A stretch of 34,250 nt of DNA. Source: a bacterium. Its GTDB lineage: Bacteria; Actinomycetota; Acidimicrobiia; Acidimicrobiales; Ilumatobacteraceae. Both the position numbers and the translations under genes were made by a program. The stretch is taken from assembly GCA_013205145.1 (NCBI GenBank), contig JABMMV010000207.1, positions 1 through 34,250 of the forward strand, given 5' to 3'. The notes below the pieces were generated by a model. It saw only the letters and a list, made by a program, of their open reading frames with translations, ran no database searches and was not told where the DNA came from. The number at the start of each line of letters is the position of its first letter. Position 1 is the stretch's first letter. Below, piece after piece: positions 6,391 to 11,961 of the stretch.

Positions 6391-6789
6391 ATGAGTACTG
6401 TTCGCTACCTCAGCCTCGACTGGATTGAAGCAATTGGCACACGTGCTGCAGAAAATGCGCATCTACAGTCACTCGGCTCCACCTTGAACATTGGTATTAC
6501 CCAAATGGTCAGCGATGGCCCGGAAGACACCGTGTTGTACCACCTTCAAGTAAGAGACAACGCAATCACATTTGGTGCCGGCCCAGCCGACCCAGAACAT
6601 GTGCGTCTTGAACAAGAATGGGAAACTGCCGTTGCGGTAGCAACTGGTGAAATGGCTGCCGAAGATGCATTCATAACTGGTGCAATACGTATTGGAGGTG
6701 ACGCACAAATGCTTCTGCACAGCCAAGAAATTTTTGCGGCGCTCGACCCCATCTTTGAAGAAGTAGCGCAAATCACCGTTTACAAATAA
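6391..6789 (+). CDS. Small SCP-2-like (sterol carrier/lipid transfer) domain protein
   Basis: 132 aa; pattern ...LEQEWETAVAVATGEMAAEDAFITGAIRIGGDAQMLLHSQEIFAALDPIF resembles the C-terminal part of SCP-2 domains (small ligand-binding domain with G-x-GD segment). Confidence 0.6.
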   Translation: MSTVRYLSLDWIEAIGTRAAENAHLQSLGSTLNIGITQMVSDGPEDTVLYHLQVRDNAITFGAGPADPEHVRLEQEWETAVAVATGEMAAEDAFITGAIRIGGDAQMLLHSQEIFAALDPIFEEVAQITVYK

Positions 6790-7214
6790 CTGCCCGACTT
6801 CAATGCAAGATACGTTGCCTCGGCATTATTTTCCTCAACTTGTACAGCATCATCGGCAAGCGGGTTCACCCACACGGCCACAATGAGTGCAAGGTCATGT
6901 AAATCATTTGTACCAAAGACGCCGTTGTCGCGCGCTTTTTGCACACCCCGCGCCACACCACGTTGAGCAGCACCCCAGGTGAGATCACCGTGATGCTCGG
7001 TTTCAATGGTTGCCTTGTTCACAAAAAGCGTCATTGGCTGCAACGGTTGATTTGGTGCAGCAACCGCCACAAAACGCGTATGCCCAACACTTGGAGTTGC
7101 TAAACCAGTTGCCCACGCTGTTCCTACTGCGCCCTCCCTGTCGCCAAGCACTGTGTTGATATGTGCGGCGTTAGTTCCTTCTCCGACAAATGATTCTCCG
7201 TATTCAGATTTCAT
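6780..7214 (-). CDS. Formaldehyde-activating enzyme (Fae) family protein
   Basis: 144 aa; GESFVGEGTNAAHINTVLGDREGAVGTAWATGLATPSVGHTRFVAVAAPNQPLQPMTLFVNKATI...WGAAQRGVARGVQKA...DLALIVAVWVNPLADDAVQVEENNAEATYLALKSG matches the Fae pattern, including the conserved AHI histidine. Confidence 0.85.
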   Translation of the reverse strand: MKSEYGESFVGEGTNAAHINTVLGDREGAVGTAWATGLATPSVGHTRFVAVAAPNQPLQPMTLFVNKATIETEHHGDLTWGAAQRGVARGVQKARDNGVFGTNDLHDLALIVAVWVNPLADDAVQVEENNAEATYLALKSGSYL

Positions 7215-7993
7215 TGGGGCAACCTTCCGTATCGCGAGAGCTTCAATTCATCTGACGAATCGGTACCACTCTTTGTGTCGTACGCCAACAGTGCAACAAT
7301 GCGCAAAGTGTTGCCCTCAACAGGAGTCACCTTATGCAATGATGTGCGGCCGTTAAAAATCATCAGCGTGCCTGCATGCATTGGTTCTACACGAATACGG
7401 TCTTGTGCGTTGCCCAACAACACGCTTTGCACACCGTCATAATTTTCATCGCTTGCCGTGCGAAGTCTTTGTGCGTTTTCAAATTTCCCACCAGCCTGCG
7501 AAGGTTGCAATGCAAGCGACACCACGAAGTCGGTCATATCGAAATGCCAACCCAATTGGTCACCTTCACTCATGACGGCAAGATTCAATGCACCAAAAGG
7601 GTCTGCGTACCGGTGAAGCTTTTCTTGCCCAAGGACACTGGCAATAAAACTCATGAGTTCCTCAGACTCATACAGTTCACGCACCGCATGATGTGCTGGT
7701 ACATGGTCATAAGCAATAACTTCGACTGCAGACGACTGCACAGTTCGGCGGGGGTGGCCAACCGGAAATGAGTCGTCTGGAGCGCTTAAATACACGGTTT
7801 TATGAGACTCCGAGCGGTGAGCCAGCGCAATGAGTTCTTCGGTTTCTGCCACCATACGCAGAACTACATCGCTCGAAATAAAGTCTGGCAACACCACAAC
7901 GCCATCACGCTGAAACATTTCGCGTAAGCGCGCAGTGGTCTGAAAATCAGAAAGCGACCACTCGCTGGTATTCACGAGAGCCGCTACTGACAT
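7211..7993 (-). CDS. Fe(II)/2-oxoglutarate-dependent oxygenase (possibly related to the HalD/BesD-type family, hydroxylase-like HxD)
   Basis: 260 aa; QRDGVVVLPDFIS start, GWHFDMTDFVVSL (HxD ligands), GTLMIFNGRTSLHKVTPVEGNTLRIVALLAYD (distal His and 2OG-binding Arg). TGA stop overlaps the Fae ATG (ATGA). Confidence 0.82.
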   Translation of the reverse strand: MSVAALVNTSEWSLSDFQTTARLREMFQRDGVVVLPDFISSDVVLRMVAETEELIALAHRSESHKTVYLSAPDDSFPVGHPRRTVQSSAVEVIAYDHVPAHHAVRELYESEELMSFIASVLGQEKLHRYADPFGALNLAVMSEGDQLGWHFDMTDFVVSLALQPSQAGGKFENAQRLRTASDENYDGVQSVLLGNAQDRIRVEPMHAGTLMIFNGRTSLHKVTPVEGNTLRIVALLAYDTKSGTDSSDELKLSRYGRLPQ

Positions 7994-8013: not shown

Positions 8014-9000
8014 CTAGATCAGCCCAAGTTCACGAACTGCGTCGCGCTCTTCAACAAGTTCTGCAACCGATGCATCAATTTTGCCTCGGCTGTATGCATC
8101 GATGTCGAGACCCTGAACAATTTTGTATTCACCGTTCTTACATACACATGGGAAAGACGAAATGAGTCCTTCAGGTACACCATATGAGCCATCGGAGGGA
8201 ACTGCCATAGAAACCCAATCACCTTCTGGCGTATCGGTAGCCCATGAGCGAACGTGGTCGATAGCCGCATTTGCTGCCGAGGCTGCCGACGACAAACCGC
8301 GGGCCTTAATAATGGCAGCGCCACGCTTGGCAACGGTGGGGATAAAAGTTTCATCGAGCCATTGCTGGTCGTTCACTGCTGCTGCTGCATTTTTGCCGTC
8401 AACTTCGCAATGGAAAAGATCGGGGTACTGAGTAGTGGAGTGGTTGCCCCAAATGGTCATCTTTTTAATAGATGACACTGGGCGATTGAGTTTTGCTGCC
8501 AACTGCGAAATAGCGCGGTTGTGGTCGAGGCGGGTCATTGCTGTGAACTGACCTGGGTTCATTCCCTTTGCGTTATTCATTGCAATGAGAGCATTGGTGT
8601 TTGCGGGGTTGCCCACCACAAGCACTTTGATGTCCTTTTTTGCATTCGCAGCAATTGCTTGGCCTTGTGGTTTGAAGATGCCACCGTTTGCCGACAACAA
8701 GTCGGCTCGCTCCATGCCGTCTTTGCGAGGCATTGCACCAACAAGCATGGCTACATCGGCATCGCCGAAAGCAACGTCACCCGAATCGGTACACACCACT
8801 TGCTGGAGAAGCGGGAATGCGCAATCTTCGAGTTCCATTTTGACGCCCTCTAGTGCGCCAAGTGCTGGGGTAATTTCAAGCAACTGCAAAATGATGGGTG
8901 TGTTTGGTCCCAACATTGCGCCAGATGCGATACGGAATAAAAGGCTGTAGCCAATTTGGCCTGCTGCGCCGGTAACGGCGACTCGTACGGGGGTTGTCAT
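8014..9000 (-). CDS. mdh: Malate dehydrogenase
   Basis: 328 aa; [61 protein letters not shown] motifs. Confidence 0.97.
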
Positions 9001-9053: not shown

Positions 9054-11147
9054 CTATTTCACGGAAGTGGTGGTTGCCCGCTGGGCAACTGAGGTGGTAG
9101 TGCTCGAGGTGCTCGTCGTTTGCCCCGGTGCCGTTAAGACCGCTTCTTCGAACTGCGGCCCAGGACGTCCTAAAGCCTCCATGATGAGCGCGGTGTACTT
9201 GCGCTGACCCAAAGGGCGCAGGTGCGTGAGGTCGTCGTAGAGCCATTTGGGGTGCTCTGTGGCGTACTTCTTCCAATCGACGATCTGCACATTGGGGTAA
9301 CGCTCGGGCAATGCGCGAATGAGACGGTTGTTTGATGCCTCCCAGCCTTTTCCGGGTACTGCGTTCGTGAGTACCACTACCCGGGGAACATCGGCCAACA
9401 CGCTCACAATTCTGTCAATTGTTTCTTGTGACGTGCCGCTATTGGTGCCCAAGTGAATGACCACAGCACTGCCGAGAGCGTTAATAGATTTCACGTAGTT
9501 CACAATTGGCAAGGCGGCTTTAAAAGCGCGGCTCTTTTGCGCATCAACCGTCACCCCATATTTTGTCATTTCTGGCGCAGCACCCAGCATGACAGAGTCG
9601 CCAATTGCCAAAATATCGATCCGTTCAGCCGGCACTGTTGTTGGCGCAACGGTTGAAGTTGTTACTTGACCAGCGACGAAACTTGTGGGGATGGTTGACG
9701 GCACGGTGGTGGGCATGAGGTTGGTAATGAAACCATCAGCATCAACCAAGCTTTGACTAATTGCGTCGAGTTCAATTTTTGCTGTTGACAAATTTGCAAT
9801 GGCAAAAACTGGAGCGAGAGAAAGCACTACTCCAATGCTCACCATTTTTCGCCGATGCAACTGGCGCTCCGGAGTAGGCGCTCCGCGCCATGTGCGCAAC
9901 CAGACACCAAGTTTCCCTTTTCTGATAGGAGTCTCGATGAATCGATAAGACGCTTCGGTAATGAGCAACGTACAGGCCATCAAAAATGTAAAACGGCCCC
10001 AACTCAGTGCGTTACCGGCAACTTGGCGAGAAATTTGAAAAATAGGCCAGTGATATAGGTACAAACCATACGAGCGAACACCAAGCCAAACAAAAACTTT
10101 ATTTCCTAAAACAACTCTTCCAAGAAAAGTTGAAGGATGCGTTACTGCGGCAATAACTGCAACCGTTGCCAACGCCACAAGAAAGAAGCCGCCACGATAC
10201 AAAAGGTCATAACCATGACTCCCTGTTTCTGCTCCAGTGACCACGTTGGTAAAGCGCCATGCCATGAATGCAAGCGAAACCAAGCCAAGAACCCCAACTA
10301 CATCGACAAGTACTGATCGTTGAGCAATACGCGCCTGAGAGATATACCACGGACGCCACCACACACCAAGTGCACCACCAAGGAACAATCCGCTCGCTCG
10401 AGTGATGGTAGACAGGTACACAAAATCAATGCGAGCCACATCGCGACCAAGAAACGTAAAGTACTGATTCGCTGTATCGGTTGCGTTGGAAATTGGCCCG
10501 GTGCGATACATCACCGCAGTTAATACTGCAATACCCACTGCAGAGAGAAAAAAACATAAACCAATAAGTGGCAGTCGACGTCGTGACAATTTCAATAGCA
10601 CAAACATCAGAAGCGGCCATATCAAATAAAACTGCTCTTCAACTGCAAGCGACCACAGATGGCGCAGAGGCGCAAAAGCAAAAGCACTGAAATAAGAGCT
10701 ACCGGTGTGAATTTGGAACCAATTGGAAATGTAGAAAAAGCCAGCGAGCACGTCACCGCGCAGCGTTCCTAACTCATTGCGTTTAAACAACGAAACATAA
10801 ACAGTGATACCTACGAGCAGTGTCCATAACGCTGGCAACAAGCGACGTGCGCGGCGTAGCCAAAATTCACGTAAATTAATGGTGCCCGTGCGCTGCGATT
10901 CGGCAACTAAAAGAAGCGTGATGAGATAACCACTAATCACAAAAAATACTTCGACGCCCAAGAATCCACCCTCTAACCAAGAGTGGTTTGCATGATAGAA
11001 AATGACCGCAATGACGGCGACCGCGCGCAACCCATCGAGCCCAGGCAGATAGGGCACCACTGCTGGCGTACGCGAGCCTCCCGCGGAATCAGGTGGCAGA
11101 CGAGACAACCGGTAACCCCAAGTTTGCATAGATCTCACGCGTCGCAC
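9054..11147 (-). CDS. Acyltransferase 3 (OafA/YrhL type) fused to a C-terminal SGNH hydrolase-like domain
   Basis: 697 aa; YLPGLDGLRAVAVIAVIFYHAN...GGFLGVEVFFVISGYLIT and SLAVEEQFYLIWP (acyltransferase 3); C-terminal DILAIGDSVMLGA, VIHLGTNSG and DDLTHLRPLGQRKY (SGNH blocks). Start uncertain (11147 or 11129). Confidence 0.93.
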   Translation of the reverse strand: MRRVRSMQTWGYRLSRLPPDSAGGSRTPAVVPYLPGLDGLRAVAVIAVIFYHANHSWLEGGFLGVEVFFVISGYLITLLLVAESQRTGTINLREFWLRRARRLLPALWTLLVGITVYVSLFKRNELGTLRGDVLAGFFYISNWFQIHTGSSYFSAFAFAPLRHLWSLAVEEQFYLIWPLLMFVLLKLSRRRLPLIGLCFFLSAVGIAVLTAVMYRTGPISNATDTANQYFTFLGRDVARIDFVYLSTITRASGLFLGGALGVWWRPWYISQARIAQRSVLVDVVGVLGLVSLAFMAWRFTNVVTGAETGSHGYDLLYRGGFFLVALATVAVIAAVTHPSTFLGRVVLGNKVFVWLGVRSYGLYLYHWPIFQISRQVAGNALSWGRFTFLMACTLLITEASYRFIETPIRKGKLGVWLRTWRGAPTPERQLHRRKMVSIGVVLSLAPVFAIANLSTAKIELDAISQSLVDADGFITNLMPTTVPSTIPTSFVAGQVTTSTVAPTTVPAERIDILAIGDSVMLGAAPEMTKYGVTVDAQKSRAFKAALPIVNYVKSINALGSAVVIHLGTNSGTSQETIDRIVSVLADVPRVVVLTNAVPGKGWEASNNRLIRALPERYPNVQIVDWKKYATEHPKWLYDDLTHLRPLGQRKYTALIMEALGRPGPQFEEAVLTAPGQTTSTSSTTTSVAQRATTTSVK

Positions 11148-11961
11148 TCGACCGATTCAACGTATAAAAATGCAACCCTGGTGCACCCGCATCGAGCAAT
11201 TGGGCGCACAACTCAGTTGCTGCTTCTACTCCGATACGACGTACTTCTTCTGGGTCATCTACTTTGGCGAGCCGATGAGCTAAATCTTGTGGGAAAGCCG
11301 CCCCCGACATTTCTGCCATGCGTTCTACTTGACTTTTGTTGGTCACAGGCATAATGCCCGGAATGATGGGCTTATGAATTCCGAGTGCCGTAAGTTCTTC
11401 AACAAGGCGCACATAGTGTTCTACTTCAAAGAAAAATTGGGTAATGGCGAAGTCGGCCGTCCGTAGCTTTTCTGCCAAAAATTTGCGGTCATCGCTGCGT
11501 GATGTACTACGCGGATGCACTTCTGGGTGTGCGGCAACGCCAATGCTGAACTGACCAGCTGCTTGTAACTCATTAACGAGATCGGAGGCAAAGCGATAGT
11601 CGCTCGGGCGCACATCGGCAGGGTCAGTTGGTGGGTCTCCACCAAGAGCGAGAATGTTTTCAACACCTGCGTCTGTATATGACTGAAGGATTTCTGCAAT
11701 ATCGCCACGCGTATGGCCGACACAGGTGAGATGCGCCATCGGCGAAATAGATGTTTCGCGACGCATCCACGTAACGAGATCGCGAGTTCGTTCGCGGGTA
11801 CTTCCACCAGCACCATAAGTAACCGACACAAAACTGGGATGCAAAGTTTCTAATTCCGCAATTGTTCGACCTAAAGATAATTGCGCAGCGTCGGTCTTTG
11901 GCGGGAAGAACTCGAAAGAGAATGTACGACCACGAGCGAGGAGTTCCGTAATGCGGGCCAT
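11089..11961 (-). CDS. metF: 5,10-methylenetetrahydrofolate reductase
   Basis: 290 aa; FSFEFFPPKTDAAQ, SVTYGAGGSTR, HLTCVGHT, NILALGGDPP, PGIMPVTN motifs. Confidence 0.95.
   Translation of the reverse strand: MARITELLARGRTFSFEFFPPKTDAAQLSLGRTIAELETLHPSFVSVTYGAGGSTRERTRDLVTWMRRETSISPMAHLTCVGHTRGDIAEILQSYTDAGVENILALGGDPPTDPADVRPSDYRFASDLVNELQAAGQFSIGVAAHPEVHPRSTSRSDDRKFLAEKLRTADFAITQFFFEVEHYVRLVEELTALGIHKPIIPGIMPVTNKSQVERMAEMSGAAFPQDLAHRLAKVDDPEEVRRIGVEAATELCAQLLDAGAPGLHFYTLNRSSATREIYANLGLPVVSSAT

Follow-up and report, generated by a model that had tools for sequence, protein, structure and literature searches.

A gene of the formaldehyde-activating enzyme (Fae) family was found overlapping an Fe(II)/2OG oxygenase gene in an actinobacterial genome, and the question that this locus raises is what the two products do together. 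The initial annotation had suggested a demethylation-plus-formaldehyde-capture pair in an organism where a tetrahydromethanopterin (H4MPT) pathway would be unexpected.

Source and organization of the locus

The window (the whole stretch of DNA that was analysed, 34,250 nt) belongs to a genome of 1.85 Mb that is 80% complete and distributed over 239 contigs. The genomes most closely related to it are MAGs that bear the names Ilumatobacteraceae, Acidimicrobiaceae or Actinomycetota, in several cases with the name of a lake, and judging from these names the host is likely a freshwater member of the Acidimicrobiia. Two MAG records titled Bifidobacterium breve (L018 and L023) hold the Acidimicrobiia locus with 96% protein identity, and their titles look mislabelled.

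On the minus strand, the malate dehydrogenase gene mdh (8014-9000) is followed after a gap of 20 nt by the oxygenase gene (7211-7993, 260 aa) and then by the Fae-family gene (6780-7214, 144 aa), both of which are intact ORFs. The two are coupled by an ATGA overlap at 7211-7214, in which the TGA of the oxygenase (7213-7211) and the ATG of Fae (7214-7212) are interlocked, and a GGAAGG stretch lies immediately 5' of the Fae ATG. The overlap and the position about 20 nt behind mdh are as the initial annotation had described them, and the observation of a coupled oxygenase-Fae-like pair is confirmed. An SCP2-like gene on the plus strand (6391-6789) converges with Fae and shares 10 bp with the end of that gene (6780-6789). 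The mdh context is kept within the genus and in L006, from another genus, and no further; the SCP2-like neighbour is kept within the genus and in L006 and L014, and is absent from the unit elsewhere. As they accompany the pair no further than the genus itself and one or two genera related to it, mdh and the SCP2-like gene were rejected as members of the unit. Elsewhere in the window, reading of the minus strand at 11089-11961 revealed a look-alike of metF-type methylene-tetrahydrofolate reductase, which would mean folate C1 metabolism in this organism.

Conservation and co-occurrence of the pair

Fifteen of 61 close relatives were Fae-positive, and the oxygenase lay beside Fae in all 15 (in L014 it runs off the contig). 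Co-occurrence was determined across a sample of 345 Acidimicrobiia genomes. An oxygenase was called orthologous above 225 bits, a threshold that we set between the orthologue and sister scores, and a fragment of 217 bits in G117 was also accepted. Fae was present in 41 genomes, the orthologous oxygenase in 39 and both in 36 (Fisher p 7e-40), and the genus-level counts were 20/3/2/142 (p 1e-20), with shared ancestry above the genus uncorrected in both tests. The pair was adjacent in 27 of these 36 genomes, while the other nine have kept both genes unlinked; in G062, which consists of one contig, they are 275 kb apart. When the adjacent-pair genomes were left out, the association still had a p of 5e-12. 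The 27 adjacent pairs lie in varied genomic surroundings, and one is divergently transcribed. Five genomes have Fae without the oxygenase: in two, the genome is incomplete or a congener carries both genes, one has the other operon type, described below, and two have a divergent Fae. Conservation across relatives, which the initial annotation had named as a check, extends to at least 10 families of Acidimicrobiia and includes co-occurrence of unlinked genes.

The median dN/dS within the genus was 0.04 for Fae, 0.07 for the oxygenase and 0.02 for mdh, and both genes of the pair are under strong purifying selection. Chance pairing and pseudogenes were rejected on the grounds of co-occurrence and dN/dS. 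Conserved and co-occurring, the oxygenase and the Fae-like gene constitute a functional unit. In two MAGs one gene is damaged: the Fae of G007 (L024, 5001-5342) has lost 31 residues, K67, H75 and Q84 among them, through an in-frame deletion and stands next to an intact oxygenase, and the oxygenase of G004 (L019/L010) has an in-frame TAG at codon 25. These are exceptions among the MAGs, reflecting either decay or assembly error.

No third partner is constant across the families. In some of them, acyl-CoA dehydrogenases, SDRs and an F420-dependent LLM protein are found repeatedly in the vicinity of Fae or of the oxygenase, but they were not counted because they are only about 32-43% alike across families and belong to large families. 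Likewise, neither amine, carrier or formaldehyde-oxidation genes nor an enzyme that would process a hydroxy amino acid further were consistently linked to the pair. We found no description of an oxygenase partner of Fae, or of Fae in Acidimicrobiia, in the open-access literature searched.

The Fae-like protein and the H4MPT question

The Fae-like protein scored 143 bits against Pfam PF08714 (cut-off 27) and 126 bits against TIGR03126 (cut-off 118), and its model matched 1y5y with a TM of 0.94, the structurally aligned sequences being 36% identical. H18 is the histidine of the AHI motif; 93% of the group and every canonical Fae included have it, and the histidine and overall Fae pattern of the initial annotation were borne out. 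H18, K67 (the NK lysine) and Q84 (the GxAQ glutamine) are common to the canonical Fae of M. extorquens. However, the canonical invariants HID aspartate, Q78, F83, F118 and W121 (1y5y chain numbering) are not kept, with fixed switches of the HID aspartate to asparagine (HxN), Q78 to H75, F118 to W115 and W121 to P118. Part of these switches is also seen in other non-canonical Fae. Given the switched residues, the chemistry of the protein may have been altered. Compared with relatives in other genera, the Fae of the window has a C-terminus shorter by about 20 residues, and this is true of its genus.

In a tree whose reference set was proteobacterial and held no archaeal Fae, window-side Fae were split from the Fae of H4MPT clusters by a branch of 2.04 (100/100). 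The window side comprises Acidimicrobiia, other actinobacteria, S. clavuligerus, Burkholderia, Caballeronia and Ensifer, with weak backbone support. By this tree the Fae-like protein is placed outside the clade of H4MPT-linked bacterial Fae, and a grouping with canonical Fae was not supported. Using archaeal genomes as positive controls, we looked by family searches only for two H4MPT markers, methenyl-H4MPT cyclohydrolase (MCH) and RFAP synthase. MCH was not found in 53 Fae-positive genomes (15+38), nor RFAP synthase in 15. The earlier doubt about an H4MPT pathway was justified, and so was the caution that the protein may work with a different pterin or serve a different purpose.

Fae-like genes outside Acidimicrobiia

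Relatives of the Fae-like gene from S. clavuligerus, Burkholderia, Caballeronia, Ensifer and further actinobacteria lie in operons with aldehyde dehydrogenases, some with an enolase-superfamily enzyme. At eight of these loci (L118, L119, L121, L124-L127 and L073), a reductase and a succinate-semialdehyde-type dehydrogenase were found beside the Fae-like gene, in some cases with an ABC transporter; the transporter near the S. clavuligerus gene is of the betaine type. Actinobacterial loci of this second context add an MR/MLE enzyme, an aldehyde dehydrogenase, an Fe-ADH or a GABA-type aminotransferase, and the context is likely a catabolic operon. More divergent Fae-like genes occur near an MR/MLE enzyme at L128-L131 (G420, G571, G541 and G483), and at three of these loci there are also peptide-type ABC transporter genes and a zinc alcohol dehydrogenase that belongs to the class III / mycothiol-formaldehyde dehydrogenase family.

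The orthologous oxygenase was absent from eight actinobacterial genomes outside Acidimicrobiia that have operon-type or more divergent Fae-like genes. Since the relatives sit in other operons and the actinobacterial genomes tested outside the class have no orthologous oxygenase, Fae-like proteins appear to have a wider role in small-molecule catabolism, which is tied to the oxygenase in Acidimicrobiia; the same observation speaks for a Fae-like function independent of an oxygenase product.

The oxygenase

The oxygenase scored 65.6 bits against Pfam PF23169 (HalD; cut-off 26) and 30 bits against the BesD equivalog (cut-off 450). Its AlphaFold model had a pLDDT of 96, and the top Foldseek matches were BesD (6nie, E 1.8e-16), HalB, HalD, HalA and the lysine hydroxylase 7jsd; by this predicted fold it is a member of the BesD/HalB/HalD amino-acid halogenase/hydroxylase family. 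BesD, HalA, HalB, HalD and the lysine hydroxylase hydroxylate or halogenate side-chain C-H bonds of free amino acids. Known demethylases were not found among its sequence or fold neighbours.

The HxD...H...R set seen at first reading was upheld, H150, D152, H220 and R231 being invariant in 32 orthologues. In the halogenases of the BesD/HalD family the iron-binding carboxylate is replaced (PMC13244439). That halogenase site is missing here, the HxD carboxylate being invariant in all 32 orthologues, and a halogenase was rejected because HxD is intact; since the carboxylate is replaced in the family's halogenases, hydroxylation is the expected reaction from the motif. Aligned with HalB, the stretch around the iron motif differs at several positions (HGWHWGDFSF vs LGWHFDMTDF), so lysine should not be assumed as the substrate. 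Identity to the BesD/HalD relatives is too low for a substrate to be transferred.

The Fae-associated oxygenases formed one clade (100/99), which included only two members from genomes without a detected Fae (G156, 85% complete, and G365). Sister oxygenases, including those on Pantoea and Klebsiella plasmids, fell outside it, and in the phylum sample they came from genomes without a Fae match. Eight unlinked oxygenases formed a clade across three families (f43, f51 and f59), and f51 occurred in several places of the tree; linkage therefore follows the gene tree and not the family. Sister oxygenases without Fae adjoin an M24 protein resembling the DMSP lyase DddP (loci L157, 6980-8371; L161, 6894-8093; L159), and the M24 proteins scored 428 and 240 bits against DddP (cut-off 600). 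The plasmid oxygenase of Pantoea and Klebsiella (L132 and L133) lies with LysR, DUF2817/M14 and ArgT-like binding protein genes, possibly in an amino-acid catabolic island.

Proposed reaction and alternative explanations

Canonical Fae, a hydro-lyase by EC class (EC 4.2.1.147), joins an amine and formaldehyde via a carbinolamine, and Fe/2OG hydroxylation adjacent to nitrogen also yields a carbinolamine. As this intermediate occurs in both reactions, the simplest common chemistry would have the Fae-like protein act on what the oxygenase forms, or on an aldehyde set free from it, with no need of H4MPT. Our tentative preference is for a two-enzyme unit in which hydroxylation next to nitrogen is followed by Fae-like handling of carbinolamine or formaldehyde without H4MPT. 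The oxygenase, with its HxD site, would accept a small substrate, amino-acid-like or zwitterionic, and hydroxylate it at a nitrogen-bonded carbon (N-methyl or N-CH2) to give a carbinolamine, and the Fae-like protein would then resolve the carbinolamine or take over the formaldehyde or aldehyde, using an acceptor other than H4MPT. We infer the substrate class, the position of hydroxylation and the retention of carbinolamine/formaldehyde chemistry by the Fae-like protein.

This two-enzyme reading is favoured by the co-occurrence, including the nine unlinked genomes, by the varied surroundings and the single oxygenase clade, by low dN/dS and the failure to find MCH and RFAP synthase, and by a Fae fold with H18, K67 and Q84 together with an oxygenase fold like that of BesD, HalB and HalD. 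It is weakened because the known oxygenase relatives attack side-chain carbons and not N-methyl groups, because genes for amines, carriers or formaldehyde oxidation do not regularly accompany the pair, because Fae-like relatives elsewhere sit in other operons, with no orthologous oxygenase in the actinobacterial genomes tested outside the class, and because the switched Fae residues could mean changed chemistry. Release of formaldehyde by the oxygenase would be possible, though not the default expectation. Of the demethylation-plus-capture proposal, the functional unit stood, but the oxygenase is not close to N- or O-demethylases, its fold being that of BesD/HalA/HalB/HalD and the lysine hydroxylase.

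The oxygenase may instead form a stable C-hydroxylated amino acid, as 7jsd does, with the Fae-like protein acting on that product in a formaldehyde-unrelated reaction such as dehydration or ring formation. On its own we regard this as rather unlikely, although it is nearly as good as the two-enzyme reading because no oxygenase relative was found that is known to attack N-methyl groups. The fold and HxD of the oxygenase fit C-hydroxylation of an amino acid, and the switched surroundings of the Fae active site and the hydro-lyase EC class are compatible with a re-used fold, as are the operons of the Fae-like relatives, which contain aldehyde dehydrogenases and sometimes also an MR/MLE enolase-superfamily enzyme. 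However, H18, K67 and Q84 of Fae are retained, and an enzyme acting downstream on a hydroxy amino acid is not consistently linked.

True N- or O-demethylation, in which the Fae-like protein would load the released formaldehyde onto a different C1 carrier, for example tetrahydrofolate, seems improbable. The tight gene coupling agrees with it, a link of non-canonical Fae groups to tetrahydrofolate has been put forward (PMC11748545), and some divergent actinobacterial Fae-like genes adjoin the formaldehyde dehydrogenase-family zinc ADH described above, but the sequence and fold neighbours of the oxygenase include no demethylase and nothing points to a carrier. It is highly improbable that the protein is a classical Fae supplied with H4MPT made by a divergent route or taken up: the TIGR03126 equivalog score above its cut-off and the shared fold are countered by the MCH and RFAP synthase results, the separate clade on a branch of 2.0 (100/100) and the asparagine in place of the aspartate after the AHI histidine. 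Equally slight is the chance that the Fae-like protein is not an enzyme but senses or regulates formaldehyde or the oxygenase, in line with the sensing or regulatory roles proposed for Fae groups 2-4 (PMC11748545), given that the residues common to canonical Fae are kept under strong selection and there is no DNA-binding domain.

Implications

The database label 'formaldehyde-activating enzyme' on non-canonical Fae-like proteins is misleading in that it suggests methylotrophy or H4MPT. For such Fae-like proteins, which lack a known function (PMC11748545), a strict partner gene provides a testable substrate lead. The pair might represent an H4MPT-free Fae-family enzyme dedicated to the carbinolamine or formaldehyde of its own oxygenase, in an undescribed route of oxidative C-N cleavage or N-demethylation; if true, a non-canonical Fae group would thereby receive its first assigned function. 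Carriers include actinobacteria of freshwater lakes, and the unit may bear on the turnover of dissolved amino-acid-like or methylated compounds.

Comparison with known systems

Of the five Fae groups that have been distinguished, only group 1 (bacterial) and group 5 (archaeal) have a known function, and sensing/regulatory or tetrahydrofolate-linked roles have been suggested for groups 2-4; that study comprised 78 sequences and used complementation of an M. extorquens delta-fae mutant as a test (mSystems 2024, PMC11748545). Groups 2-4 resemble the window protein in being non-canonical Fae relatives that also occur in actinobacteria. In Methyloversatilis, growth of fae2 and fae3 mutants on C1 compounds was unimpaired (PMC5023235).

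The M. extorquens Fae (1y5y/1y60) shares with the window Fae the Pfam/TIGRFAM family, the whole fold, the AHI histidine, the NK lysine and the GxAQ glutamine. In contrast, the window protein is 36% identical, belongs to a separate clade, has HxN for HID and the other fixed switches, comes from a type of genome in which the H4MPT markers were not found, and has an oxygenase as neighbour. The Fae-like proteins of S. clavuligerus, Caballeronia, Burkholderia and Ensifer lie on the same side of the H4MPT-Fae branch with 46-57% identity to the window Fae, whereas their genes adjoin the reductase and succinate-semialdehyde-type dehydrogenase (some with the ABC transporter) and not an oxygenase.

The Pantoea and Klebsiella plasmid oxygenases are 36-37% identical to that of the window over the whole length, but stand outside the Fae-associated clade and have LysR, DUF2817/M14 and ArgT-like neighbours and no Fae. 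BesD, HalA, HalB, HalD and the lysine hydroxylase 7jsd share the fold, a Pfam HalD score above cut-off and the Fe/2OG motif with the window oxygenase, which differs from them by its 15-20% identity and its Fae-like partner, and from the BesD-family halogenases by having HxD in place of the halogenase site.
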